From a virus: a DNA stretch of 64,000 nucleotides. The notes beneath the pieces were generated by a model. It was given only the letters and a program-made list of their open reading frames with translations. It searched no databases and was not told where the DNA came from. The translations under genes and the position numbers were made by a program. Where the stretch lies: the IMG/VR virus record IMGVR_UViG_3300032268_000986, positions 172,259 through 236,258 of that record. One strand, 5' to 3'. Below are positions 340 to 29,116 of this stretch, in pieces; position 1 is the first letter of the stretch, and every line of letters begins with the position of its first letter.

Positions 340-1455
340 TCAGCAGTTCCACTTGCGCAGTGCCAGAGCCTTGCGAGTGGGTTTACCATTGGGCTTTTTC
401 ATGGGGCCTTTGACGCCGCCCATTCTGGCACAAAATGATTTTCTGCGCTTGGCTGCTTTGGAACCTGGCTTGAGTTTTGAAGGCTTGGTGGTCACTGCCA
501 TTTGCAGTTTGCTACCGGGATTCTCTCTGCGATAGCTGGCCACACCCTTGGCATTGAGTCCGCCCTTTTTGCTCTTGCCTTCTTTTCTGCGCCAGGCAGC
601 AGTTTCATACAGCACGTTGTCTGGCAGGGCTTCAAACTGTTCCCATACTAGATCTTTACTCACACGATTTTTCACTGCCATTTCTTCGGCCAGTTGATCC
701 ATGGCTTCAAACATCTCATCCACTTCAGGATCCACTTCGTCCGACGCTTCTTCAGAGTACATGTAGTCCCACACTGCGACCAGCATGCTCTTGGCCACAG
801 CAATCTTTTCCTGGCACCATTCAGGCAAGTTGTCGCCTGAGTCAATCAAGTCGTCGATACCTCGAACAGCACGATCCAGGGTTTCTAGATTGTTGTCGGC
901 CATGCCGGCTTCGTCGTCATACTCGGGATTGTAGTTTTCTGGCATGGTTTGTTCACCAAAACGTTGACGATAGCTGTTGGGGTTCATTGACGATCTGGTC
1001 CCGACCACAGCATTGCCTTCGCCACTTAATAACAAATCATACATGAGTTTGATTACTTTTAAGGGGCTATTCATTCTTTCCAGGGCGTTTTTAAACCATT
1101 CAACTTTTTCTGGTTTCATTGGCTTGGAACTGGGCTTGCTGATCAGCGCCAGGGCCTGAGCCTTTAGCGTGGACAAGTCTCTGATTTGTTCAAGACGTTT
1201 TAAATCCTCAATATCAAAGTTGTAATCGGCTTTGCCTTCCGCCACACCTTCTGACTTGTTGCCATAGTTGCCAGCGCCTTTTTTGCGGCACTGAACCAGG
1301 CGTCCTGATGCATAGGCTGACGGCCATACTTTTGCACTAGACTTGACCTTGTAGTAACAGGCGTCTTTCTTTTCCATCATCAGCATTTCGCTGAACATGG
1401 GGCCACCACAGTGTGGGCATGACTGTTTGGATTCAACCAAGTCTTTGAATTTCAT
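340..1455 (-). CDS. Modular putative internal capsid protein, DUF6321-like C-terminus
   Basis: 371 residues from an ATG at 1455, preceded by AAGGA and overlapping the upstream stop as ATGA; a longer upstream reading frame is unlikely. The N-terminus MKFKDLVES resembles T4 capsid-targeting peptides, with a gp21-type site LVE|S. Next come a CPHCGG pair, a small basic module around VWPSAYASGRLVQCRKKG (about residues 43-60), and GVAEG at about 70-74, a second possible cleavage site. An acidic, helical middle follows, then a basic C-terminal cassette (GGLNAKGVASYRRENPG, SFCARMGGVKGP, ALRKWNC) that I recognise as the DUF6321-type module of T4-like phages. It is probably packaged with DNA in the head; the biochemical role is unknown. 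Confidence 0.6.
   Translation of the reverse strand: MKFKDLVESKQSCPHCGGPMFSEMLMMEKKDACYYKVKSSAKVWPSAYASGRLVQCRKKGAGNYGNKSEGVAEGKADYNFDIEDLKRLEQIRDLSTLKAQALALISKPSSKPMKPEKVEWFKNALERMNSPLKVIKLMYDLLLSGEGNAVVGTRSSMNPNSYRQRFGEQTMPENYNPEYDDEAGMADNNLETLDRAVRGIDDLIDSGDNLPEWCQEKIAVAKSMLVAVWDYMYSEEASDEVDPEVDEMFEAMDQLAEEMAVKNRVSKDLVWEQFEALPDNVLYETAAWRRKEGKSKKGGLNAKGVASYRRENPGSKLQMAVTTKPSKLKPGSKAAKRRKSFCARMGGVKGPMKKPNGKPTRKALALRKWNC
1234..1250 (-). repeat. 17-bp GVAEG element, copy 1
   Basis: gccttccgccacacctt. On the minus strand it reads in frame as GGT GTG GCG GAA GGC (GVAEG) inside the 371-aa protein. The identical 17 bases recur three times in the 633-aa gene near 7.4-9.3 kb. Confidence 0.9.
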
Positions 1456-2015
1456 TTGCGTTTTCCTTTGGTACTTACATTTATGGCTGCGCCTGATCGA
1501 TTGGCATTGGGATCTTCTCGGCGCTTTCTTGCGGCTGCACTGGCACGACCCTTTTTGCCCAGGGCATGTGCCTTGGCCTGTGGCAAACACTTGGGCTTGC
1601 CTTCTTTGCTACTGCCTCTGGCACAGTCTCCACGTATTTTGCCGTCGGGTCCAAAACGAACCCATTTTTGTTTGAACCAGTCACGTAGATTTTCTTCCAG
1701 CTCTTGTGTGGACATTTTCTTTTCATATCCCTGCACAGAGGTGGTCTTGTCGGGGTCAGGCGCACCTTGCAATTTGGCAGCTGGCAAAAACTTCCGTATA
1801 CTCTGCAGGGTCAGCGGACCCATCACGCCATCCACATCCAGGTTGGCACGGTACTGTTGATTCAGCATCTGTTGTATTCTGCGAACTTGATCTGACGTCA
1901 TGTCTTGTTCTTCACTCACAGGCACACAATTGGGTACCATTCGGGAACCTTTTTTCTTCATGCCTTGACGACGATATCCGGTCCAGCAGGCTTCCAATAT
2001 TTCTCTATATCTCAT
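1452..2015 (-). CDS. Putative internal capsid protein with peptidoglycan-binding-like and DUF5872-like modules
   Basis: 187 residues. The N-terminus MRYREILEA fits a capsid-targeting peptide ending in a gp21-type ILE|A site. Residues about 10-32 form a small Cys-containing cassette (CWTGYRRQG, VPNCVP). Residues about 43-75 look like a PG_binding_1 repeat (RRIQQMLN, DVDGVMGPLTLQSIRKF). The C-terminal 75 residues (WVRFGPDGKIRGDCARGS, KPKCLPQAKAHALGKKGRAS, then a Lys/Arg-rich tail) match the DUF5872-type basic module of large phages. It overlaps the next gene by four bases. It probably enters the head with the DNA, and a peptidoglycan-binding role at injection is possible; both are inference. 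Confidence 0.6.
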   Translation of the reverse strand: MRYREILEACWTGYRRQGMKKKGSRMVPNCVPVSEEQDMTSDQVRRIQQMLNQQYRANLDVDGVMGPLTLQSIRKFLPAAKLQGAPDPDKTTSVQGYEKKMSTQELEENLRDWFKQKWVRFGPDGKIRGDCARGSSKEGKPKCLPQAKAHALGKKGRASAAARKRREDPNANRSGAAINVSTKGKRK

Positions 2016-4366: not shown

Positions 4367-4992
4367 ATCACTGTTACCTTGATGTCGTTGTTTGTGTAGT
4401 TTTGTCTATAATTGCTGTCGGGCCAGGCAATGTTCAATGCATCACATAATTCCAAATTGGTAGATACTGGTTTTGATCCGCGATGTTTGTAATCCCACAT
4501 GGCATCAGTGATGCCTGTGTTCTGTTGTTTAATTATGCCGGACATGGTCTTTAAATCTTTATAGTATGTATCATACAATGGATAGGTGATGTCAAAATGT
4601 CCACACTTGACCCACCAGCCCAGACAAGCATCATCTGAGCGATGTACCAACACAATAGGCGACTCAGGCCAGAGACTCTTTAGTGTGCCAATCTGTGTGG
4701 AAAAACAGTGACTTTTGATAATGCGAATACCCGAACCACAAAATGGTCTATCAAATTCAGCCTCCAGCATTTCTTTTTTATATTGTGCTAGATTGTCAAA
4801 TCCTGTGCCAAACTCCATGCCTGGATCCCAGTAAGCACCCAGATGCATCAGGTCCATTCGGCCCGCAGCGTCATGGTAGTAGGTACGTGCATCAGAGTAG
4901 TCGGTTTGATCAATGCTGGGCGAATAATAAATGTTTTTTACCACACTGCTCCATTTTGAGCCTGGGGCACCGGCCACAAAGATGTATTTCAT
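4363..4992 (-). CDS. Sulfotransferase-like P-loop protein
   Basis: 209 residues. It starts KYIFVAGAPGSKWSSVV, a PAPS-binding-like loop as in sulfotransferases. A second conserved block, SPIVLVHRSDDACLGWW, sits where the 3'-phosphate-binding Arg/Ser are in that family. Sulfotransferases move sulfate from PAPS to an acceptor, and the same operon encodes an APS-kinase-like domain, the enzyme type that makes PAPS. The link is suggestive; fold similarity is moderate. Confidence 0.55.
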   Translation of the reverse strand: MKYIFVAGAPGSKWSSVVKNIYYSPSIDQTDYSDARTYYHDAAGRMDLMHLGAYWDPGMEFGTGFDNLAQYKKEMLEAEFDRPFCGSGIRIIKSHCFSTQIGTLKSLWPESPIVLVHRSDDACLGWWVKCGHFDITYPLYDTYYKDLKTMSGIIKQQNTGITDAMWDYKHRGSKPVSTNLELCDALNIAWPDSNYRQNYTNNDIKVTVI

Positions 4993-5951
4993 TGGTTGGG
5001 ATCAATTCTACGTGCAATGGGTTGCCAGGTCTGTTGCAGGCGAGCCATGCTGGCTCTAACACCAGCTGGACTGTGTTCTTCGGGTGTGATATACATCATG
5101 TTTTCACGAAATTTAGCACCGGCTTCTGCTGACCGTATTGCCGGCACAAACTGGTCACGATACCATGCTTGTATTTCAGCAGGTGTACCTGGTGGCAACA
5201 CCATGTTCCAGCAGCCGTGTATGCTGAGTCCAGGGGCGGCTCGGCTCATTAAAGGAATGTGCTCAAGTCCTGGTAGAGTGCGTGTGTCAGCAATGCCGAT
5301 AAACTTGAGAAGCCCGGCCTGCGCATGTGGATAGCCCACGGCCACTGGAGTCACACCAAATTCCACATGTCCGCCCATGACATCTGTCAAGGCCTGTGCC
5401 GGTCCTTTGTACATCACAGTTTGCAAGTTGTCGCTGCCAGGCGCACTGACTCGGTCCACAAGATATTCCACTGCCAGCTTGTGTCCGCCGCCACCAATGG
5501 CCACCATTAGTCGCTGTCGATTACGAATGGCAGCCACAAACTCTTCTGGAGTGTTGATTCGACTGCTGGGGTGTGCCCAGAATGCCAAGGGGCTGCGGGC
5601 AATGTTGGCAATGGGTTCTAGATCCATGGGATTATATTTTATCATTTTTGGATACCATATCTCAGGTGTGACCCAGTTTGATTGGCAAGCAGGCACAGCA
5701 ATGGTGTGCCCATCTCGAGGCTGTGTGACAAAGTGATTGATGGCAATGTTGCCATCAGCACCGGGACGATGTTCTGGCTTGAACACTGCACCAGTTTTCT
5801 TCTCCACAATGTCGGCCACGATGCGGAACGAGATTTCGTTGCCGGCGCCGGGTCCATTGGGGAATATCACAGTCACAGGTTTTGAGGGCTGCCATGCAAA
5901 TGCTATGGCAGGCGCCAACAACAGCGCAGCAAATAATTTTTTGATCAACAT
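4989..5951 (-). CDS. TctC/Bug-family periplasmic solute-binding protein
   Basis: 320 residues, the usual family length, with a clear Sec signal peptide (MLIKKLFAALLLAPAIAFA). Family landmarks are visible: PSKPVTVIFPNGPGAGNE near the mature N-terminus, a HRPGADGNIAINHFV block, RDGHTIAV, the GPAQALTDVMGGHVEFG region, and LPPGTPAEIQAWYRD near the C-terminus. Bug proteins bind carboxylates in the periplasm for tripartite tricarboxylate transporters and are heavily expanded in Burkholderiales. A phage copy is unusual. It heads a translationally coupled operon and has AAGGA before the ATG, with an exact TATAAATA box about 75 bases upstream. Confidence 0.85.
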   Translation of the reverse strand: MLIKKLFAALLLAPAIAFAWQPSKPVTVIFPNGPGAGNEISFRIVADIVEKKTGAVFKPEHRPGADGNIAINHFVTQPRDGHTIAVPACQSNWVTPEIWYPKMIKYNPMDLEPIANIARSPLAFWAHPSSRINTPEEFVAAIRNRQRLMVAIGGGGHKLAVEYLVDRVSAPGSDNLQTVMYKGPAQALTDVMGGHVEFGVTPVAVGYPHAQAGLLKFIGIADTRTLPGLEHIPLMSRAAPGLSIHGCWNMVLPPGTPAEIQAWYRDQFVPAIRSAEAGAKFRENMMYITPEEHSPAGVRASMARLQQTWQPIARRIDPNQ

Positions 5952-6762: not shown

Positions 6763-7395
6763 TCAGCGCCCGGCCACTGCCAAGGCAGCACCGTTGTTGA
6801 AACTCTGACTGTGCGACTGCGCCTGACGCAGACCCTTGCGCTTTGACCACTCATATCCAGCACGATGGCCCGAGCAGTCCTTGGTACAGGGCGAGCCTAG
6901 GAACGACAGCTCTTGCAAGTGTTCGGCTGACTCGCCCAGTTCAATTTCCGGGGTCACGCTCTGAAACGTGCGATCCATCACAGCAGTCTTGAACTGAAAC
7001 TCTGAGGTTTGTTCGTTGTTGCGGCGTAGGCCAATGCTGAGTCCAGTATCGGGATCACGCACCCAGACCTTGCTGGCAGCTGGCATGCGCATGAGCTGAT
7101 CCTGGATGCTGGGCAGTCGGCGCAGAGCTTGATCCACAATGCCAGGATCTATTTCACGAAAATACACCTGTTCAATGGCATGGCTGTCTACGTCAATGGT
7201 CAAGTCGCCAATGTGTAAGTGTCCTTGTGATGTTTCTGCTATGTGTGATTTTGATTCACCGCCTCCATCACCGCCACCTTCGCCAGAATCTTCACTGCCG
7301 TAGTAGGCATACCCTGGGAAAAAATATCCACCATAACGACTGGATTTTTTCCCACGACGTTTTTTGCGCTCGGTGACAAACTCTTGGGCTCTCAT
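6763..7395 (-). CDS. Putative internal capsid protein with C-terminal Cys module
   Basis: 210 residues. The N-terminus MRAQEFVTE is strikingly like the T4 internal-protein targeting peptide (MKTYQEFIAE), with a possible cut after Glu. A basic and Tyr-rich stretch, then a Gly/acidic linker, leads to HIAE|T at about residue 52, a second gp21-type motif. The middle (EQVYFREIDPGIVDQALRRL onward) resembles a small toxin-like or RelE-like alpha/beta fold, but I cannot assign it. The C-terminus (CTKDCSGHRAGYEWSKRKG, FNNGAALA) is a small cassette recurring in large T4-like phages. It is coupled by ATGA to the upstream 633-aa gene. Confidence 0.55.
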   Translation of the reverse strand: MRAQEFVTERKKRRGKKSSRYGGYFFPGYAYYGSEDSGEGGGDGGGESKSHIAETSQGHLHIGDLTIDVDSHAIEQVYFREIDPGIVDQALRRLPSIQDQLMRMPAASKVWVRDPDTGLSIGLRRNNEQTSEFQFKTAVMDRTFQSVTPEIELGESAEHLQELSFLGSPCTKDCSGHRAGYEWSKRKGLRQAQSHSQSFNNGAALAVAGR

Positions 7396-9293
7396 TTTTT
7401 TGGTGGTTGCACTGCTGTGGGCACGTTACGGTACACACGTTTTTGTGGGTCGTACACTGTTTTAAGTGGGCCCATGCCTGCCAGTTTCTTTACTCTGGCC
7501 ACCATGTCTTGATAGTCGTCACCGTAGTCGGCTTCGGGTGGCTCAGACTTCCGGTTGCCTTCCGCCACACCTTGTGATACGCTTTCAAACTCTGGCTTTT
7601 TATTTGAAGAAAGTCTATCTAATTTTTCAATAGTGCTACCTGCATTTCTAAAAAACTGTGCTGATTCTTTTTGGTATAATTCTGGATTATTTTTTAATAC
7701 TTCTACACTTTGCTTTGCCTTAGGGTAGATGCTATTAACATAATCTTTAGCATTGTTTGCATCAATAAACCTCTTAATAGATGCGGCAACTGCTTTAAAT
7801 AAATCACTATTATCTAACTGTCTATCTTTACAAATTGCGTATACTATTAAAGCATCTATTAGGACATCAAATTCTTCTTTACCAAGATTGCCCATTGCAG
7901 ATTTTTGTTGTTGTTGAGATTGGAGTGCAGAATTATATTTTTGATACGCTTCGCTTATACCTGCTCTATACGCATTTAAAAAATCCTGATAACGATTTTT
8001 CATATTAGTTAGAAACGCTGACACTAACTTATTCTCTTTATCTAACCCGGATGCCTCATATGCTTGTTGATTGCAAGTATCAATCACATTTTTTGCATTA
8101 TATGAATTTGTTTGTCTACAATAGTCAGAGACCCAATTACCAACATTAGTGACTAACCAATTTCTTAAATCATATCCTGTGTCCTGGTGAATACGACCCA
8201 TTGTTCTTGTGGCCAAATCTGTAGCATATTTTGTCCATTGCGTAACTTCCTGAGCGTCTGCTTTTGTTGCAACACCACCGGCTGCACCTGTCACAGCCGC
8301 CGCACCCAAGCCCTTTAGGAATCCTCTACGGTCTATTTCTTCTAATGAGCCTTCCGCCACACCTTCTTGCATATTGTTTAACAATTCCTGCGCTTTTTCA
8401 ATGCTGATCATGTATCTACCAAAGCGGTTAGGGTCTGCAGCCTTTTGTAGATATTCTTTGCTAAAGCCCTGTGGTCCGCTTGGTGAATCTATTCTAGCAG
8501 GAGCTGTGACTTGTTGCTTGCCATTTGCTCTGGCCTGTAGTTCTGCCTTGGCATCAGCAACACTGACCATTGGGCGAGGGTGTTCACCTGAAGCAACTTG
8601 TTGTAGATATTGTGTATTATAATTACTCAAGTCTGCCGCCTGAGCATGACCCATACCACCACCCATTGCCATGGCACCTGCTAATGCAGCTGAGCCCAAT
8701 GCGCTTTTCCACCCTTCAGTTAAATCAGTTACACCAAAACCAATATAGCTGTCACCGTGTTCGTCGCCTGATCGAACAACAAATGCGCCGCCCTCTTCAC
8801 TTTCAATTTCACCAATTTCCCAACCTTGGCGAGCTAGAGCTTGTTCAACTTGTTGTTGTACAGCATCATCACCATTGTACCACATACGAGCGTACTTGTG
8901 TAGTGTATCTTCTTCACCACTGTCACCGCCATCACCTGGCGCAAATTCATTCAACGAGCCTTCCGCCACACCTTGGCTTTCACTGACTTCGGCAGCGGTC
9001 AGGTACACAGTCCAGGTCTTGCCCGAACTGGCGGATTTCCGTTCAGCCCACTGCTTCATGTTTTCAAGATTGCTGCGCTCTTCTGCACTGTCTGCTGTGC
9101 CACGGCCGGCAACCACTTTCCATGGTCTGCCATTGATGGCAATTTGTATATTGTTGCGCTCGTGTGCCAGTTCTTGACGTAGGCCACGATGGTCATCGCC
9201 ACGGCCCATGCCGCTCACACTGCTGTCGTAGTCACGCTGATAAGCATCACGACGGTCAAAGCGACTTTCTTGTGTTATTTGACTGACTTTCAT
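7392..9293 (-). CDS. 633-aa modular polyprotein with GVAEG linkers and buried signal peptides
   Basis: Begins MKVSQITQES and is built of modules separated by three GVAEG sequences (residues 108-112, 311-315, 575-579). Module 1 (43-106) holds INGRPWKVVAGRG and EERSNLENMKQWAERKSA. Module 2 (113-310) has an acidic domain, then LTEG at 191-194 and a Sec-like segment (WKSALGSAALAGAMAM, ending AQA). Module 3 (316-574) opens with a Tat-like signal, DRRGFLKGLGAAAVTGAAGG ending ADAQ, then a helical, Cys-containing domain with AT-rich DNA. Module 4 is a short charged tail. VAE|G and LTE|G fit the T4 prohead-protease consensus, so this may be a capsid polyprotein cut during maturation. Module functions are unknown. 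Confidence 0.65.
   Translation of the reverse strand: MKVSQITQESRFDRRDAYQRDYDSSVSGMGRGDDHRGLRQELAHERNNIQIAINGRPWKVVAGRGTADSAEERSNLENMKQWAERKSASSGKTWTVYLTAAEVSESQGVAEGSLNEFAPGDGGDSGEEDTLHKYARMWYNGDDAVQQQVEQALARQGWEIGEIESEEGGAFVVRSGDEHGDSYIGFGVTDLTEGWKSALGSAALAGAMAMGGGMGHAQAADLSNYNTQYLQQVASGEHPRPMVSVADAKAELQARANGKQQVTAPARIDSPSGPQGFSKEYLQKAADPNRFGRYMISIEKAQELLNNMQEGVAEGSLEEIDRRGFLKGLGAAAVTGAAGGVATKADAQEVTQWTKYATDLATRTMGRIHQDTGYDLRNWLVTNVGNWVSDYCRQTNSYNAKNVIDTCNQQAYEASGLDKENKLVSAFLTNMKNRYQDFLNAYRAGISEAYQKYNSALQSQQQQKSAMGNLGKEEFDVLIDALIVYAICKDRQLDNSDLFKAVAASIKRFIDANNAKDYVNSIYPKAKQSVEVLKNNPELYQKESAQFFRNAGSTIEKLDRLSSNKKPEFESVSQGVAEGNRKSEPPEADYGDDYQDMVARVKKLAGMGPLKTVYDPQKRVYRNVPTAVQPPKK
7557..7573 (-). 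repeat. 17-bp GVAEG element, copy 2
   Basis: Exact copy of gccttccgccacacctt, in frame as GVAEG at residues 575-579 of the 633-aa protein. Confidence 0.9.
8349..8365 (-). repeat. 17-bp GVAEG element, copy 3
   Basis: Exact copy, in frame as GVAEG at residues 311-315, immediately before the module with the Tat-like signal. Confidence 0.9.
8958..8974 (-). repeat. 17-bp GVAEG element, copy 4
   Basis: Exact copy, in frame as GVAEG at residues 108-112, after the first module of the 633-aa protein. Confidence 0.9.
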
Positions 9294-9859
9294 ATGATTC
9301 CTGCTGCGGCTTGTAACACACGAACATCAGCAGTGACTTCGTGTATGCGCCGGGTGGCCAGGCCAGCTGCGGCACGCATTTCATTTAGATCTTCCTCGTG
9401 GGTGCGACGATAGTCATCGGGTGTGCAGGGCACAGCTTTGGCAAATGTTTCTGGATTCCAAGGCCACTTTTTACCTTCGTAATGCACAGTCCAGTCTTCA
9501 GGGTCAAACTCGGTCAAGGTTGACAGGTCATCCAGGAGAGTCTGCACATGTTCAGGCGCTGACCTGCGTCGACGGATTTCCACATACACCAGGAATCTAC
9601 TGGGCTTGATTTCACCTGGCGAGCGGTCAGCATCCATGACAAAGTCATAGCCTTTTTCAAACCAGGCCACTAGATCCTTGGCCGCAGACAAGTCACGTAC
9701 AAAAAAGCTCAGCACAATGATGTCAGCATCATCGCCCATTTTGCTGGTGAATTCATCCACGTGAACCGTGGACTTCATTATGCCATCAAGGTCACGATAC
9801 TGTAGACCCTCAGATAGTCGCTGGCGCCGCGGGTTGGTTGAGTTGTTGTTGTGCTGCAT
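9290..9859 (-). CDS. Conserved T4-like phage protein
   Basis: 189 residues from an ATG at 9859 that has GGAG six bases upstream; an ATG at 9874 is possible. It contains VHVDEFTSKMGDDADIIVLSF, DLVAWFEKGYDFVMDAD and an RFLVYVEIRRR strand, an alpha/beta pattern I recall from structural-region proteins of marine T4-like phages, where the family is unnamed. The sequence RLSE|GL near the N-terminus also fits a prohead-protease site. It overlaps the neighbouring gene by 50 bases and the 633-aa gene by ATGA. Confidence 0.6.
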   Translation of the reverse strand: MQHNNNSTNPRRQRLSEGLQYRDLDGIMKSTVHVDEFTSKMGDDADIIVLSFFVRDLSAAKDLVAWFEKGYDFVMDADRSPGEIKPSRFLVYVEIRRRRSAPEHVQTLLDDLSTLTEFDPEDWTVHYEGKKWPWNPETFAKAVPCTPDDYRRTHEEDLNEMRAAAGLATRRIHEVTADVRVLQAAAGII

Positions 9860-10391
9860 CAGCTGCTCCGTCATTTTGATATTCTTCTTGGTCAAGATCA
9901 TTTTCATAGGCCTGATCCAATTCATCAAGTTCAATCTCTTCGTCTTCCATTTCAATGGAACCAGTGCGTATGTCCTGCATCAGGGCCTTGGGCATGGTGA
10001 TTTCCACCAGCCACACTTTCTGACGCATGAGCTTGGCTTTTTTGGTGCCGGCTCGATAATCACTGGGATCTTCGATCTTGATGGGAATTTGAATTTCTTT
10101 TTTCATGAACTCCACGTTGCAGTCAAACGACAACAACCGGCGTGCGCCTCTAGGGTCGGGCATGAGTTTCAGGGGCCACATAAACGTGCAGGTCACTCGA
10201 TAACGGCCAATTTCTGGGCCCGACACCAGCTCGCCAATTTCCCAGTTTTTGAAAGCATACAGGTCTACTTCGTCCAGCACACGCTCAAAATCCAAGAGTG
10301 TGACAAGACTGCCCTCGCTCATGTAGATGTCACGAATGTTGTCGGCTACTTGCCAGTAGTCGGTGTGATCGCGGAATATTTCTTTGTCCAT
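9810..10391 (-). CDS. Conserved T4-like phage protein (virion region)
   Basis: 193 residues from MDKEIFRDHTDYWQ at 10391. The block VADNIRDIYMSEGSLVTLLDFERVLDE and the strands GRYRVTCTFMWPLKLMPDPRGA are, from memory, strongly conserved in cyanophage and pelagiphage T4-like genomes near head genes. The C-terminus is acidic then Gln/Ala-rich. No Shine-Dalgarno sequence is visible; an ATAAATA box ends five bases upstream. Function unknown. Confidence 0.65.
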   Translation of the reverse strand: MDKEIFRDHTDYWQVADNIRDIYMSEGSLVTLLDFERVLDEVDLYAFKNWEIGELVSGPEIGRYRVTCTFMWPLKLMPDPRGARRLLSFDCNVEFMKKEIQIPIKIEDPSDYRAGTKKAKLMRQKVWLVEITMPKALMQDIRTGSIEMEDEEIELDELDQAYENDLDQEEYQNDGAADAAQQQLNQPAAPATI

Positions 10392-10396
10392 GTGGT

Positions 10397-10403
10397 TATT
10401 TAT
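10397..10403 (-). promoter_or_regulatory. Late-promoter-like ATAAATA box
   Basis: Minus strand CCATAAATAACCAC directly before the ATG at 10391; transcription from it would start close to the first codon. Confidence 0.45.
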
Positions 10404-10427
10404 GGGTATATTATCAGTAGCCAAATC

Positions 10428-11168
10428 TTAGAATGGTACAGTAGCAGTTTGTGTTACTGTGCCGTTGTTTGTGACAGTTTGTGTGCCCGATGTGTCTGTG
10501 GTCACAGCCGCACCCAACATCAGGTACTTGGTATTAGCCAGGCTAGTCAATGGTGCCGACGGTGCTGTCACCGTACTACTGGTGCTGTTATACACTGCTG
10601 AGCCCACAGTGATTCTAAGGTTGGTTATAAAGCCAGACCAATAGCCGCCATAGAATCTGCCGATCCAGTTACAGACACCTGTATAATCAAGATTGTTGAC
10701 CTGTGTTCCGCCGCTAGGGCTGGTTCCGCCTGCGGCACCGGTAGCACGACTGCAGGTCACATAAGCACTAGTATTGACAAAAGTACCCACCCACATGGTT
10801 TCTACCTGTGTGCTGGCATTGCGGTTTAGTATGATGTACTGCCATTTGTTGACCTGCAAGGTGTTGCTGGGGAAAGTATAAGTCCTAGCACCGCCACCGC
10901 CGTATTTGTCCAGGGTAAATGACTGTGCATCAGTATTGAATAGGCTGAGAGCACCCGATTGATCTGTGGCAACCAACGCCTTTTGACTAGCATAGCTACT
11001 GTTGTTATAACACCAACCTTCTATAGTGTAAGCACCGGTGCCTAATGCGGCGCCAGGTGACATTGAGAGATACTGACTGCTTCCGTTGAACTGTAGGCTG
11101 CCTGCCAATGGCGTGTAATTTACAGCACTGGGCACATTGCTGGCCAGTGACATCATGATGCCGCTCAT
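10428..11168 (-). CDS. LamG/concanavalin-A-like tail protein
   Basis: 246 residues from MSGIMMSLASNV; the start overlaps the upstream stop as TAATG. LQFNGSSQYLSMSPGAALGTG, YTIEGWCYN, NKWQYIILNRN and IGRFYGGYWSGFITNLRIT are the signature strands of the LamG-like jelly-roll fold (laminin G/pentraxin superfamily), often a carbohydrate-binding domain of phage tail fibres. It follows the 1,116-aa fibre gene and is probably an accessory tip or receptor-binding protein. Confidence 0.7.
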   Translation of the reverse strand: MSGIMMSLASNVPSAVNYTPLAGSLQFNGSSQYLSMSPGAALGTGAYTIEGWCYNNSSYASQKALVATDQSGALSLFNTDAQSFTLDKYGGGGARTYTFPSNTLQVNKWQYIILNRNASTQVETMWVGTFVNTSAYVTCSRATGAAGGTSPSGGTQVNNLDYTGVCNWIGRFYGGYWSGFITNLRITVGSAVYNSTSSTVTAPSAPLTSLANTKYLMLGAAVTTDTSGTQTVTNNGTVTQTATVPF

Positions 11169-14100
11169 TATGACAGTCCTGTTCCGTTGATGAACCAAGT
11201 ATTGGCTGCGGTGTTCATGATAGTGGCCATGCCAAATGTGGCCAACACTCGGTTGCCCGCGGTGGCATTACCTGCCTGGTACATGCTTACGCCTGTGCCC
11301 TGATTTATCAAGATGCTGGCTGTGCCGGCATTTACAATTGTGATAGCAGTGCCCACGGGCCATGCGACTGAAGTGTTGTTGGCAATGGTCAAACTCAAGT
11401 TTGATGCACTGACTGAGTAATAATGTCTACCAGCATCTGTAGCAGCAATGGTTGCGTTGGCAGAGAATGAGACCTGCGGTATATCTCGGTAGCCCACTGC
11501 TGTGGCACTACCATTGGGCGCATTGCCCAGGTCCATGTACAAGCCACGAGTGTTGCCTCCAGATTCAAAGAACCGCATGCCGTTTTGGAATACATCTTGA
11601 ACCAGGCTTGTGCTCAACACTGTGTTGGCTAGCGCCGGGAGAGCCCAAAAAAGTTCAGCACCCTCGTTGCCACCCGGAGCATTGTCGATAGTAATGTTGG
11701 CACCAGTAAAACGAATGTTACCAATCACATTGCCAGTGACACTTAAATTGCCACCTGTAATATTGGCAGTTGTTGTGATATTGGCAGCACTGGTCAACGC
11801 TGACACAACGTTGCCACTCAAACTCAATCCTGCGGCATTCAATGTATTGGCACTGGTGACATTGCCGGTGGCACTGACACTGCCCGGAGCACTTAAATTA
11901 CCAATGTTGCTAAATGACCATGTCTTGGCTGTGCCATTGACATCGGTCATAATAGTGGCACTGTTAGCATAGGCGGATACAATAGTGTCTGGGTTAGGTT
12001 GTGTAGTTCTCCATGACAGCAACTGTGCTGGATTGTCTGTGCCATTGTTCATGGCCGCAATAGCAATGGCACCATTGGCCACAGTTTTGATAAGCCCGCC
12101 CGAGGTACCAGGTATGACCAAGTTGCCTGTGGTATCAAAGGTCCAGGTATTGGTGCCGTTGCTGGTCACAGTCACGTTGCCATTGCTGGTTGCAACACTT
12201 ACATTACTATTACCATTGACAATGTTGCTACTTGGACTTGCAACTATGCCAGTGAGTTGGCTACCATTACCTAGAATAAAATTGCCGCTGACGTTGCCGG
12301 TGGCTGATATTAAGCCACCAGTCAAGATGTTGCCACCTGTAACGTTGCCAGCCACGCTCAAGGGAACGTTTTGTACCTGCACAAGCACGTTGCTTACCAC
12401 AAGATTGTTGTTGCCGCCAGCACCAATATTGATAGCATTGCCGGGATTTGGTGCAAGGATGTTTGTGACGGTTAGGTTTGTACTGTTGACATTGAGTATA
12501 TCTCCTATTGTTCCTTGGAGGTTGCCACCAGTGATGTTGCCTGTAGCAGATATCAGGCCACCTGTGAGTATGTTACCACCTGTGATATTAGCAGTTACAC
12601 TCACGGTAGTTCCTGTGTGTGTGGTGGCATTGACATTGGCGCCACCTAGTACGTTGCCACCAGTGATATTGCCTGTGGCTGATATCAATCCGCCTGTGAG
12701 GATGTTGCCACCGGTGACGTTGCCGGAACTTACCAGACTGTCCACATTGGCTGTTTGGAAATAAGCCACGCTGTTGAGGCTGTTGCTGAGTGTGCTGTTG
12801 GCCTTGTCGTAGACCAAGCTGATGATACTGTGATTTCCTGCTATGCTTACACGGGCCACATTGTCGGCTGCAGGAGTTACTATCTGATTGTTCATCAGTG
12901 TAACTACTGTGCCAGCACTGGCAGTGACAGCATTGGCTGTGTTGCTTGAAGCACGAATTATTGAATCAACAATGTTCAAACTACCTGCAGTGACCTGAGG
13001 CATCACGCAATCATTGGCTCCCTTGACCAACACAGCGGCTCCAGCATTGTTGACCACTAGATTGTCTATTTTGTTGCCAACAATGCTAATAGATCCTGAA
13101 CCAGATATCAACACATTGCCTGTGACCTGTAGCTCACAATCATCAACTTCTACATAGCCTGAACTGCTTTTGGTAAATTGTCCGGTCACAGTTGACATGC
13201 TGATATAAGCCTGTGAGTTGCCTGCGATGATCAGATTTGCCATTCTGAGTCCAGCAATCCTGCTAGTAACATTGGCCATGGTGACTGTGCCAATGACTAT
13301 AGTGCTGGCACCAGTGGCATCATAGGTTATTAGTTGTGTATTTGTACTGGTTATAGTGGGATTTTCTGTGTATTCACCTGGGTGTATCACAATGGTATCG
13401 CGACCACCAGCAACCTGTGTGAGTGCGTGAGTTATGGTCAGATATGGTCGTAGTATGGTTCCTGTGCCAGTGCTGTCATTGCCGTCTTTGCTGACATGCA
13501 TCTCATCAGCAAAACTAGTACTGATACCAGTCAGCTGTGATCCATTGCCAATAAAATAGTTGCCAGTGACGTTGCCTGCGGCTGAGATCAATCCACCTGT
13601 TAAGACGTTGCCACTTGTGACATTGCCCGACACTGAAACTGTGGTGCCTGTATGTGTTGTGGCATTGACATTGGCACCACCAAGTATGTTGCCACCAGTG
13701 ATATTGCCTGTGGCGGATATCAATCCGCCTGTTAGGATGTTGCCACCTGTGACGTTGCCCGAAGCTGACACAGTGGCACTTTGTACCAGAGTTGCTGCTA
13801 TGACGTTGCCGCCGCTGACGTTGCCAGTGGTCACTATCAGACCAGCTGTGGTAATATTACCACCAGTTACGTTTGCACTTACTGAAACAGTGGTACCTGT
13901 GTGTGTTGTGGCATTGACGTTGGCTCCACCCAAGATGTTGCCACCAGTGATGTTGCCTGTGGTTGATATTGGATTTGATCCCAACGCAGCCAAATTGGCC
14001 ACAACATTGGCGTTGCCATAACTGGCAGCAATACCAGACAGCAGTGAACCGTTGCCTAGAATAAATCCACCGGAAATGTTAGCAGTGGTTGTGATGTTGC

Positions 14101-14518
14101 CCGTGCCACTGATAGTGTTGGCTCCCAAACTGGCCAATAGAGTAGTCACATTTGAATTGCCATATGTACCGCCCGACGTAATGGTCATTGTGGCCACTGC
14201 GCCGTTGGCAGTGACAGCAACGCCTGATCCAGTGAAGTTGATTGCTGTGGCGTCTTTTACTATGATATTGCCATCCACCATGACTTCAATATAGTTGGGC
14301 ACTGTGGGCTTGACGTTGGTAACAGTGGTGCTGCCAGCAGGGTTAACAGCAACTTCCTGCACAGGCACAACTGCAGGAGTTGTGCTGGCAGTGATGCCCA
14401 GTCCTGGTCCAGGTTCCACTGGTGCCGGAGTTCGATCTAACGGGGCTATTGGTGTTGGTGGGGGTGTAGAAGTGTCTACTGCGGCTGGTGCATAGGTGTA
14501 ATTGTTATTTGTGGCCAT
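11168..14518 (-). CDS. Long tail fibre with TGN repeats and a beta-helix domain
   Basis: 1,116 residues. A Pro/Thr-rich N-terminus (PPPTPIAPLDRTPAPVEPG) is followed by many copies of a repeat of about 17 residues (consensus SATGNITGGNILTGGLI). These DNA repeats are shared with the fibres at 19.5 and 26-29 kb. At about residues 340-560 a right-handed beta-helix is suggested by HVSKDGNDSTGTGTILRPYL (the pectate-lyase-like entry motif) and repeated short strands. The C-terminus (VGYRDIPQVSFSANATIAAT onward) looks like a trimerising tip. Preceded by AAGGA and a GGTAAATA box. Structural role confident; receptor unknown. Confidence 0.75.
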   Translation of the reverse strand: MATNNNYTYAPAAVDTSTPPPTPIAPLDRTPAPVEPGPGLGITASTTPAVVPVQEVAVNPAGSTTVTNVKPTVPNYIEVMVDGNIIVKDATAINFTGSGVAVTANGAVATMTITSGGTYGNSNVTTLLASLGANTISGTGNITTTANISGGFILGNGSLLSGIAASYGNANVVANLAALGSNPISTTGNITGGNILGGANVNATTHTGTTVSVSANVTGGNITTAGLIVTTGNVSGGNVIAATLVQSATVSASGNVTGGNILTGGLISATGNITGGNILGGANVNATTHTGTTVSVSGNVTSGNVLTGGLISAAGNVTGNYFIGNGSQLTGISTSFADEMHVSKDGNDSTGTGTILRPYLTITHALTQVAGGRDTIVIHPGEYTENPTITSTNTQLITYDATGASTIVIGTVTMANVTSRIAGLRMANLIIAGNSQAYISMSTVTGQFTKSSSGYVEVDDCELQVTGNVLISGSGSISIVGNKIDNLVVNNAGAAVLVKGANDCVMPQVTAGSLNIVDSIIRASSNTANAVTASAGTVVTLMNNQIVTPAADNVARVSIAGNHSIISLVYDKANSTLSNSLNSVAYFQTANVDSLVSSGNVTGGNILTGGLISATGNITGGNVLGGANVNATTHTGTTVSVTANITGGNILTGGLISATGNITGGNLQGTIGDILNVNSTNLTVTNILAPNPGNAINIGAGGNNNLVVSNVLVQVQNVPLSVAGNVTGGNILTGGLISATGNVSGNFILGNGSQLTGIVASPSSNIVNGNSNVSVATSNGNVTVTSNGTNTWTFDTTGNLVIPGTSGGLIKTVANGAIAIAAMNNGTDNPAQLLSWRTTQPNPDTIVSAYANSATIMTDVNGTAKTWSFSNIGNLSAPGSVSATGNVTSANTLNAAGLSLSGNVVSALTSAANITTTANITGGNLSVTGNVIGNIRFTGANITIDNAPGGNEGAELFWALPALANTVLSTSLVQDVFQNGMRFFESGGNTRGLYMDLGNAPNGSATAVGYRDIPQVSFSANATIAATDAGRHYYSVSASNLSLTIANNTSVAWPVGTAITIVNAGTASILINQGTGVSMYQAGNATAGNRVLATFGMATIMNTAANTWFINGTGLS

Positions 14519-25984: not shown

Positions 25985-28900
25985 TTAAATCAGGTTGCCC
26001 CAAGCACCATTTTCATAGCCTTGGAATTTGTTCAGTGTTGAATTGTAAATCATGTCACCGTTGACAGCAATCAGTGCATTTCGTTGTGTTGTGGTCAAGC
26101 TGGGTAGTCTAAACGAGCCGCCACCTACCACACGCACTGCGGTAGCTGCCGATAGATCCAGGTTCGTAGCCGAACTCAGTGTTGGTGTACCTGCGCCGCC
26201 ACCTTGAAAATTTCCAGCAATCACATTGCCAGCTGTGGAAATAATTCCAGTGGCAAGGATATTGCCGGCTGTGATGTTGCCTGTGGTTGATATTGGGTTA
26301 GACCCCAGTGCAGCCAAGTTGGCCACAACGTTGGCGTTGCCATACGTGACTGGAAGCCCACTTAACTGTGAACCGTTGCCAAAGATATAACCGCCTGTGA
26401 TGTTGCCTGTGGCTGATACAATGCCCCCGGTTATAACATTGCCCCCAGTGATGTTGCCTGTGGCTGTGATCAAACCAGCTGTGCTGACATTGCCCCCAGT
26501 GATGTTGCCTGTGGCTGTGATCAAACCAGCTGTGCTGACATTGCCCCCAGTGATGTTGCCCAATGCACTGATTGTTCCTGTGCTGCCAATTATTGTGGCA
26601 TTGGCAGTTACAATGTTACCGCCTGTGACGTTGCCACTGAGCGATGCAGTGGTACCTGACAGTAATGTGGCGTTGACACTGGCACCACCCAGGATATTGC
26701 CAGCAGTGACGTTGCCTGTGGCACTGATAGTGGCAGCAAGCACCTGCGTGGCTGCAACATTGCTACTTGTGGCGATATCTTGTGTGGTAACAATGGAACT
26801 TAGTACATTGCCACTGATGCTCAATGATGATCCAGTGATGTTTGCACCAGTGATGTTGCCCAGAGCAAACAAGATGCCACTAGTGATTAAGTTGCCACCA
26901 GATACATTAGCAGTGGTTGAAATTATATTTTCACTAATGATATCACTCAACACATTACCAGTTAGTGCAAATCTACCAGTTGACACATTCCCACTGACTA
27001 TATTGCCAGTCACACTTAGAGAAGCAAGTGTACCAACATTGGATGACACAACTCCACTTAGCTGTGAACCGTTGCCAATAAAAAAGTTGCCAGTGATGTT
27101 GGCTGTGGTGGTTACATTGCCAGTCAGGGCCACAAGATTACCTGTGTATGTGGGCAGGTACGCAGCCACATCAGCATTGCCATACGTGGCAGGGAGACCA
27201 GTCAGTTGTGATCCGTTGCCAATGAAATAGTTGCCAGTGACATTGGCTGTGGTGGTTACATTGCCAGTCAGGGCCACAAGATTACCTGTGTATGTGGGCA
27301 GGTACGCAGCCACATCAGCATTGCCATACGTGGCAGGGAGTCCAGTCAGTTGTGATCCATTGCCAAGAATATATGAACCAGAAATGTTTCCAGCGGCTGA
27401 TATTTCTCCATTGACAATTAATCCATCTTGAATAGTGACAAAACTAGAATCATCACTAGAGATATTGTTAACCACAAGATTAACAGCTGATAAATTGCCA
27501 CCTGTGACGTTGCCGGTTGCAGATATTGATCCGCCAGTTATCAAATTGCCGTTGTTAATATTGCCGGTCACGCTCAGACTAGCCAGTGTACCAATATCTG
27601 TGGCAACTACACCAGTTAACAATGCGCCATTGCCTAAAAAGTATCCACCGCTGATGTTGGCAGTGGTTGTGATATTTGCCGCGCTGGTCAATGTACTTAC
27701 AACATTACCACTTAAACTCAATCCAGTAGCATTCAAATTGCCGCTGGTGATGTTGCCAGTAGCTGAAATTAGCCCAGCAGTCAAGATGTTGCCACCCGTG
27801 ATATTGCCTGTGACAGTGGCCAGGCCACCTGTGACAACATTGCCACCTGTGACATTGCCAGTTGCTGAAATGATACCATCTGTCAACAAGTTACCACCGG
27901 TGACATTGCCTGTCAGTGATGCTGTTGCGCCTGTGTGTGTGGTGGCATTGACGTTGGCGCCACCCATGATGTTACCACCTGTGATGTTGCCCGAGGCGCT
28001 GATTACCACAGCAGCAATGTTGCCAACTGTTGAAATATTTCCACCAGTGATGTTGCCTGTGGCACTGACAACTCCAGCAGTTAAAATGTTGCCACCTGTG
28101 ACATTGCCCGCTGCACTTACTCGGTCCCCGGTGACCAAGGATGTGGCATTGACGTTGTTGCCACCAATGTTGCCACCTGTGGCATTGGCACTGATGTTCT
28201 GAGCAGTGATATCGTTGGTGGCAGTGATTGTGGCAGTGTAAACAACCCCAGTGGTGATAAAATTGGCTGCTGTGACGTTGCCAGTGGCGCTGACTGTTTG
28301 GTCTGCATTGATGTTGTTGGCTGACACATTACCCGATCCGCCCAGGGCATTGCTAACTGTTAGGTTGTTCAAATTGCCCACAGTTTGTAAACTGCTGTTT
28401 GTTACGTTTGCACTCAGTGTGGTGCCAGTGATCAAGGCTGCATTGGCGCTGACTGACACCCCGGTCAGCAGCGCACCATTACCAACAAAATAATTGCCAG
28501 TGATGTTGCCCGAAGTAGTAATATTGCCCACTGAAGTAATTGCACCTGCCGTGGTCAAATTACCTGCTGAAACATTCCCTGTGGCACTGACAACACCCCC
28601 GGTGTTGATGTTGAGTCCGCCCACGTTGCCTGAGGCGCTGATTGTGCCAGTTGCAATGAAATTTCCACCTGTGGTATTGCCTGTGACTGCTAGATTTACG
28701 AGATTTCCCACCGTGGTCAAACTGGAAAACAACACATTTGAGCTCAGTGTATTTCCTGTGATCAATGCCGCGGCCGGACTTGAAACCACCCCAGTGATCA
28801 AACTGCCGTTGCCCAGCAAGAAGCCGCCGGCAATGATGTTGCCTGTGGCAGAAATTACTGAATTTGCCAGCAATGTACCAGTAACTGTGGCCCCTGTGCC

Positions 28901-29116
28901 TGACACCACCAGCACATTTGCCACGCCTGTGGAACTCACACTGACAGTGGAATCATCAACAATGCTGATATTGGAATTACCATTGGCAATACCCGAAACA
29001 CCGCCAATGTTGTATAATTCAGTAAAGTTTTGATTGGTCTTGGTAAATGCTGTGCGCAGCGGATCTCCCAGCCCGTCATTTGGGGATGATCCTACGTCGA
29101 TTATTTGTTGTGTCAT
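25985..29116 (-). CDS. Long tail fibre with TGN repeats
   Basis: 1,043 residues. The N-terminal SSPNDGLGDPLRTAFTKTNQ followed by NFTELYN is a recurrent fibre attachment motif. Almost all the rest is a 17-residue repeat (ATGNITGGNxxTxGxxS), interrupted by FLGNGSLITGV-type 24-48-residue units. The C-terminus (RLPSLTTTQRNALIAVNGDM, NKFQGYENGAWG) is the common short tip of phage fibres. It contains exact internal DNA duplications at 26437-26538 and 27101-27340. The repeats suggest a long beta-helical trimer whose length can change by recombination. Confidence 0.75.
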   Translation of the reverse strand: MTQQIIDVGSSPNDGLGDPLRTAFTKTNQNFTELYNIGGVSGIANGNSNISIVDDSTVSVSSTGVANVLVVSGTGATVTGTLLANSVISATGNIIAGGFLLGNGSLITGVVSSPAAALITGNTLSSNVLFSSLTTVGNLVNLAVTGNTTGGNFIATGTISASGNVGGLNINTGGVVSATGNVSAGNLTTAGAITSVGNITTSGNITGNYFVGNGALLTGVSVSANAALITGTTLSANVTNSSLQTVGNLNNLTVSNALGGSGNVSANNINADQTVSATGNVTAANFITTGVVYTATITATNDITAQNISANATGGNIGGNNVNATSLVTGDRVSAAGNVTGGNILTAGVVSATGNITGGNISTVGNIAAVVISASGNITGGNIMGGANVNATTHTGATASLTGNVTGGNLLTDGIISATGNVTGGNVVTGGLATVTGNITGGNILTAGLISATGNITSGNLNATGLSLSGNVVSTLTSAANITTTANISGGYFLGNGALLTGVVATDIGTLASLSVTGNINNGNLITGGSISATGNVTGGNLSAVNLVVNNISSDDSSFVTIQDGLIVNGEISAAGNISGSYILGNGSQLTGLPATYGNADVAAYLPTYTGNLVALTGNVTTTANVTGNYFIGNGSQLTGLPATYGNADVAAYLPTYTGNLVALTGNVTTTANITGNFFIGNGSQLSGVVSSNVGTLASLSVTGNIVSGNVSTGRFALTGNVLSDIISENIISTTANVSGGNLITSGILFALGNITGANITGSSLSISGNVLSSIVTTQDIATSSNVAATQVLAATISATGNVTAGNILGGASVNATLLSGTTASLSGNVTGGNIVTANATIIGSTGTISALGNITGGNVSTAGLITATGNITGGNVSTAGLITATGNITGGNVITGGIVSATGNITGGYIFGNGSQLSGLPVTYGNANVVANLAALGSNPISTTGNITAGNILATGIISTAGNVIAGNFQGGGAGTPTLSSATNLDLSAATAVRVVGGGSFRLPSLTTTQRNALIAVNGDMIYNSTLNKFQGYENGAWGNLI
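26437..26538 (-). repeat. Exact 51-bp tandem duplication in fibre gene
   Basis: Two identical 51-bp units (26437-26487 and 26488-26538) encode one 17-residue fibre repeat each; a third partial unit follows at 26539. Identity at third codon positions means recent duplication. Confidence 0.85.
27101..27340 (-). repeat. 144-bp-period direct repeat in fibre gene
   Basis: About 96 bases at 27101-27196 recur exactly at 27245-27340. The unit encodes 48 residues containing YGNADVAAYLPTYTGNL. Confidence 0.85.

Follow-up and report, generated by a model that had tools for sequence, protein, structure and literature searches.

An 18-nt in-frame element encoding a predicted prohead-protease site joins exchangeable modules of a candidate head-packaged polyprotein in large T4-like phages

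In T4, the internal proteins IPI-III and Alt are packaged and lose their targeting peptide when gp21, which cleaves after L/I-X-E, cuts them (PMC9026906, PMC3012670). The proteins described here resemble these in carrying variable cargo behind a constant tag, with similar N-termini across the clade (MRAxEF[IVL]xE); each T4 internal protein, in contrast, is a single cargo, with no internal run of sites, no junction element in its DNA, and no masked export signal. In phiKZ and SPN3US, many head and ejection proteins are cut after Glu, with several sites per protein (PMC10052503), but there the extra sites break up long N-terminal propeptides and are not boundaries between shuffled cargo modules. 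Polyvalent proteins (Iyer et al., 2017, PMC5512222) are multidomain proteins that combine unrelated activities and are predicted to be injected with the DNA; in the parts of that account drawn on here, any processing is due to peptidase domains of their own, and there is no description of a junction DNA element or of protease sites placed systematically between the domains. Several different catalytic domains in one chain, the mark of that group, are not found in the 633-aa protein considered below, and some of its relatives carry GNAT, deaminase, or nucleotidyltransferase domains.

On the DNA side, integron cassettes, shufflons, and homing-endonuclease islands all exchange modules at short conserved DNA sequences, as do the modules described here, and nuclease genes are known to bound exchanged regions in phages (PMC10448857). 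Unlike those shuffling systems, the present element lies inside open reading frames (ORFs), keeps the frame, and encodes a peptide that is selected in its own right. Among openly licensed articles, the element sequence occurs in no paper and no arrangement of this kind is described, whether an in-frame mobile cassette with a junction that encodes a protease site or signal peptides exposed through prohead proteolysis. To us the combination is of a new kind, while each component alone has a known relative.

The window is a stretch of 64,000 nucleotides (positions 172,259-236,258) from a viral record of 342,865 bases, IMGVR_UViG_3300032268_000986, which is T4-like by its clamp loader. Its large terminase and UvsX-type protein, which we identified from their sequences and searched with, are likewise taken by us to point to T4-like phages. 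The record is incomplete: the block of portal, protease, scaffold, and major capsid protein (MCP) genes is absent, which is why PF03420 and PF07068 have no match in it and relatives were used instead. The features of the window are given in Table 1.

Table 1. Features of the modular polyprotein gene and its surroundings in window coordinates; a slash in a peptide marks a predicted cleavage.
Feature	Position	Strand	Details
Second modular gene	340..1590	minus	Likely start at residue 46, MKFKDLVE/S; C-terminal DUF6321
Element copy 4, in the second modular gene	1234..1251	minus	GAAGGTGTGGCGGAAGGC
Downstream gene, 210 aa	6763..7395	minus	Starts MRAQEFVTE/RKK, T4-like capsid-targeting sequence
633-aa modular polyprotein gene	7392..9293	minus	Predicted fragments 1-111, 112-193, 194-314, 315-578, 579-633
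Element copy 3	7557..7574	minus	CAAGGTGTGGCGGAAGGC = QGVAE/G (E578/G579)
AT-rich Tat cassette	7560..8351	minus	264 aa; GC 0.36; helical cargo
Tat-like signal	8253..8351	minus	GSLEEIDRRGFLKGLGAAAVTGAAGGVATKADA/Q; residues 315-347, after VAE/G
Element copy 2	8349..8366	minus	GAAGGTGTGGCGGAAGGC = EGVAE/G (E314/G315)
Sec-like segment	8637..8714	minus	GWKSALGSAALAGAMAMGGGMGHAQA; residues 194-219, directly after LTE/G (E193/G194)
Element copy 1	8958..8975	minus	CAAGGTGTGGCGGAAGGC = QGVAE/G (E111/G112)
Upstream gene, virion structural protein	9290..9955	minus	PHROG 13138, head and packaging, E 2.5e-14
Virion structural protein gene	9810..10424	minus	PHROG 12928, head and packaging, E 3e-27

The frame and start of the 633-aa ORF are solid, because its ATG overlaps the stop codon of the upstream gene and its own stop codon in turn overlaps the downstream ATG. 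GC content along the five predicted fragments runs 0.53/0.46/0.48/0.36/0.53 and shifts at the element junctions. The N-terminus, MKVSQITQE, has T at P3 and makes an imperfect capsid-targeting sequence. No Pfam domain is found in the protein except a sub-threshold TAT_signal, and the whole protein has no tblastn match in isolate phages. The AlphaFold model of the single 633-aa sequence is of low confidence (mean pLDDT 40), with a confident part in the Tat cassette only around residues 470-563, and was not used. A sequence-only reading had called the gene a capsid polyprotein with three VAE/G sites, one LTE/G site, and Sec-like and Tat-like segments behind them. The ORF is real, although that reading left its minus strand unremarked, and "capsid" was a surmise, which now draws support from neighbors that match PHROG head-and-packaging proteins. 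The sites also stand (V109-A110-E111/G112, V312-A313-E314/G315, V576-A577-E578/G579, and L191-T192-E193/G194), the residue numbers first quoted being off by at most 1, but their identity as DNA and the fourth copy in a second gene had been missed. Both signal-like segments are as it described them (G194-A219, and DRRGFLKGLG with its sub-threshold Pfam match).

All VAEG sites of the record are one DNA sequence, [C/G]AAGGTGTGGCGGAAGGC, which occurs four times in 342,865 bases, on one strand only, with no match to the reversed control; this recurrence is far beyond chance. The 15-mer core was found in at least 119 IMG/VR stretches, mostly within long ORFs and in the frame that reads GVAEG, up to six times per gene, and the element has hundreds of copies across contigs of uncultured T4-like phages. 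Sites were also gathered with the pattern CARGGNGTNGCNGARGGNTC, left free at synonymous positions to avoid selection by exact sequence; a single coding, GGTGTGGCGGAAGGC, is used at 97 of 133 QGVAEGS sites, against 0.4 expected from codon usage, and a further 19 are one base away from it. Conservation drops to background just beyond 18-19 nt. With up to one mismatch allowed, 33 of 34 large records carry the element, nearly all with every copy on one strand, and the reversed control again had no match in the 34. One near-match in a 424-kb contig (L038/G033; terminase 53%) was set aside as probably a chance match in a cousin phage. No copy of the element turned up among 50,697 isolate phage records, where the best matches span 17 bases (E=7) apart from one of 24 bases at 92% identity, and the nearest isolates by terminase, PA5oct-like Pseudomonas phages, are only about 52% identical. 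Prokaryote genomes (257 Gb) yielded 26 single matches in scattered taxa and various frames, and these are treated as background.

The element also marks where unrelated sequences meet. Among 362 sites compared, 239 pairs match on one side (at least 65% identity over 60 nt, often 100%) and are unrelated on the other, and the step falls exactly at the element; of 355 alignment ends, 122 coincide with an element in each of the two sequences (about 0.1% expected by chance). Twenty near-identical segments (88-100%) occur in different contigs with elements bounding both ends, for example L164:5962-6168 = L209:329-535 and L183:6536-7042 = L196:1831-2337. As such segments start and stop exactly at elements, the protein modules, judged by these comparisons, evidently move as in-frame cassettes. 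Relatives also combine modules of the window itself: in L184, the N-terminal module of the window's 416-aa protein is fused to two stretches of the 633-aa protein, residues 102-258 and 557-632. In G001, the nearest relative (terminase 87% identical), the matching slot with matching neighbors is occupied by a 378-aa protein with two elements that has only the C-terminal module in common with the 633-aa protein. The same relative has an HNH-type homing-endonuclease-like gene directly after its MCP gene (L274:9670-10440). The encoded recombinase expected of an integron or other site-specific system is not seen in 15 records, none of which matches Phage_integrase (no tyrosine integrase) or has a serine Resolvase above cut-off; a UvsX-like recombinase is present in 12 of the 15. 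On these grounds, general recombination at short homology seems the likelier exchange route.

Selection on the encoded peptide was assessed in mutated copies of the element, 277 distinct ones that differ from it at 1-3 positions, Glu not being used as a filter. The P1 Glu codon had changed 35 times, 31 of them silently (p = 1.3e-11 even at a generous neutral rate of 0.33), and 26 of 27 non-silent changes of the P3 Val are to L, M, or I. The P2 Ala also changes to E, S, V, and T, the flanking Gly residues (P4, P1') drift, and all 305 of 305 near-copies lie in frame 0. The comparison shows sites following an [aliphatic]-x-E rule, under purifying selection at the protein level ([LIVM]xE). The proposed fit to the T4 gp21 consensus thus holds in the form V/L-x-E, decayed copies keeping the aliphatic P3 and the Glu at P1. 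A candidate enzyme, the gp21-type Peptidase_S77, is found in 13 of 34 element contigs, the nearest relative included, and MCPs of the clade carry L[KASLM]E/[NS] at what we take to be the position of the T4 gp23 cut. N-termini resembling capsid-targeting sequences open 37% of element ORFs and 13% of other ORFs (Fisher 3.6e-9); the T4 IPII/IPIII N-terminus, for comparison, is MKTYQEFIAE.

Behind some of these sites lie putative export signals. Homologues of the Sec-like segment, of a WK type, are preceded by VAE, VEE, LEE, LTE, or MEE, and none without a preceding Glu was found among homologues in relatives. The Tat-like segment has R322-R323-G-F-L-K, an h-region, and ADA/Q at 345-347. It matches Pfam TAT_signal over residues 319-339 (E 4.7e-4) at 20.4 bits, just under the cut-off of 22.7, with the whole protein as query, and at E 1.6e-4, again just under the cut-off, with the module alone, whereas homologous segments of relatives score above it. 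The segment would be N-terminal only if the precursor were cut at E314 or E319. Tat-like segments were gathered by their own sequence, together with those already seen in element loci, giving 35 distinct segments, 30 of which belong to this kind of protein (the clade). In all 30, a Glu stands 2-5 residues before RR, with L, V, or I at P3 in 26 and P2 free; P1' is often D, I, or V, unlike the small residue usual in T4. Among internal Tat segments, 18 of 23 have [LIVMF]xE within 8 residues upstream against 3.65 expected (0 of 200,000 simulations), a test that overstates independence in that clade members share ancestry. When hydrophobic segments in general were tested for a position behind elements, 4 were counted against 2.8 expected, not a significant excess; the pattern is found in the Tat and WK classes only.

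Some relatives have the Tat segment directly after an N-terminal tag (L023, MRATEFVTE/MDRRGFLRG; L049, MRASEIIAE/DLTRRGFLG). Cargoes behind relatives' Tat segments include GH19, SLT plus LysM, M48, and TonB C-terminal domains, all of them envelope-type; for the cargo of the Tat module in the window, no relatives were found in IMG/VR. Tat-GH19 muramidase-like proteins were noted at L023:3858-4493, L049:6261-6890, and L169:5172-6263 and in L299 and L322. The phage itself has a second internal Tat gene outside the window (L132:2359-3918, minus, record positions 162,359-163,918), whose 519-aa product has a cytidylyltransferase-like domain followed by GELDE/DLSRRGFLRGLGAAAVAGAAGSAIAQ at about residue 200. 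In L031, L096, and L105 (cluster c18), a cassette begins (S)EQKYLWHGSRQKIPML, reminiscent of an ADP-ribosyltransferase motif.

The reading that we favor, with a probability of roughly 0.6, is that several head-packaged proteins derive from the one precursor encoded by the gene, which is built from in-frame cassettes and cut by a gp21-type protease that thereby unmasks signals. The precursor would have been assembled in evolution from DNA cassettes, each junction being one 18-nt element that serves as short homology for exchange between phages, probably by UvsX-type recombination, and, once translated as Q/E-GVAE/G, as a cutting site for the prohead protease. It would enter the prohead core and be cut into about five pieces during head maturation, two of which would gain a new N-terminal signal, one Sec-like and one Tat-like; the pieces might then be ejected with the DNA into the next cell and sent to its membrane or periplasm. 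In a weaker variant, the exposed signals would already work in the cell that makes the phage, for instance on pieces leaving the prohead during maturation. Unmasking by cleavage, as the sequence-only reading proposed, is well supported by comparison, because [LIVM]xE is selected, relatives have a gp21-type protease and matching MCP sites, and Tat segments are placed after Glu; the recombination-junction side had escaped that reading. That the pieces are packaged, injected, and then exported by the next host is our inference. The broader proposal, that a large T4-like lineage delivers changing effectors as head-packaged polyproteins, with the element as both exchange and protease site and with Tat and Sec signals unmasked for export in the next host, is tentative, and we put it somewhat short of even odds.

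Alternatively, the element could be a recombination junction and nothing else, the modules being uncut domains, VAEG incidental, and the hydrophobic stretches anchors or linkers. Identity at synonymous positions and the sharp cassette ends show that the DNA matters, but such a junction does not predict a kept Glu and an aliphatic P3 amid the drift of other codons, nor the replacement of VAE by LTE, VEE, LEE, LDE, or IDE before homologous signal segments, and we regard it as unlikely. Slightly less probable still is that the protease does cut but the pieces stay in the head as scaffold or core filler, with signals that are inert or bind the membrane during prohead assembly. The T4 core proteins gp22 and gp67 are indeed likewise cut up by gp21 (PMC9026906); the envelope enzymes and domains carried as Tat cargo in relatives argue against it.

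The signals might instead be exposed by internal translation starts, and a possible start codon does lie a few residues upstream of some internal Tat segments. L290, L322, L299, and L099, however, have no ATG, GTG, or TTG within 30 codons upstream, whereas all 30 clade segments have the Glu; an internal start was rejected for Tat segments with no start codon nearby and is very improbable overall. Hardly credible at all is an assembly artefact in which short repeats join unrelated metagenomic reads: every contig is metagenomic, but independent contigs show matching architectures (L174/L211/L221, L115/L176), and misjoining cannot yield codon-level selection or a single frame. Moreover, 18 nt is shorter than the k-mers usual in final assembly.

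If the favored reading is true, prohead proteolysis would be at once capsid maturation and the programmed release of a combinable cargo library, part of it addressed for export in the next host. This would amount to a polyprotein strategy in phages, with in-frame shuffling of modules whose joint always becomes a cleavable linker. A long-standing question, that of what large phages deliver to cells alongside their DNA and how such cargo diversifies, becomes testable, and the element together with MRAxEFxxE starts would provide a marker for finding many candidate injected proteins.

The likely start of the second modular gene agrees with a PHROG 727 match that begins at that residue of its product. 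Near the tail sheath genes, three small proteins (L139:6974-7354, L139:7354-7719, and L139:10295-10903) start MRAREFVTE, MRAREFITE, or MRPFAQYLAE and are candidate packaged proteins without elements. Several proteins that begin with a signal peptide and resemble tripartite-tricarboxylate (TctC/Bug) binding proteins, unusual for a phage, are encoded at 4989-5951 (minus) of the window and at L124:11726-12712. Large repetitive GNVTGGNILTGGLISATGN proteins, tail- or fibre-like, are encoded at 11168-14518 (minus) and 25985-29116 (minus) of the window.
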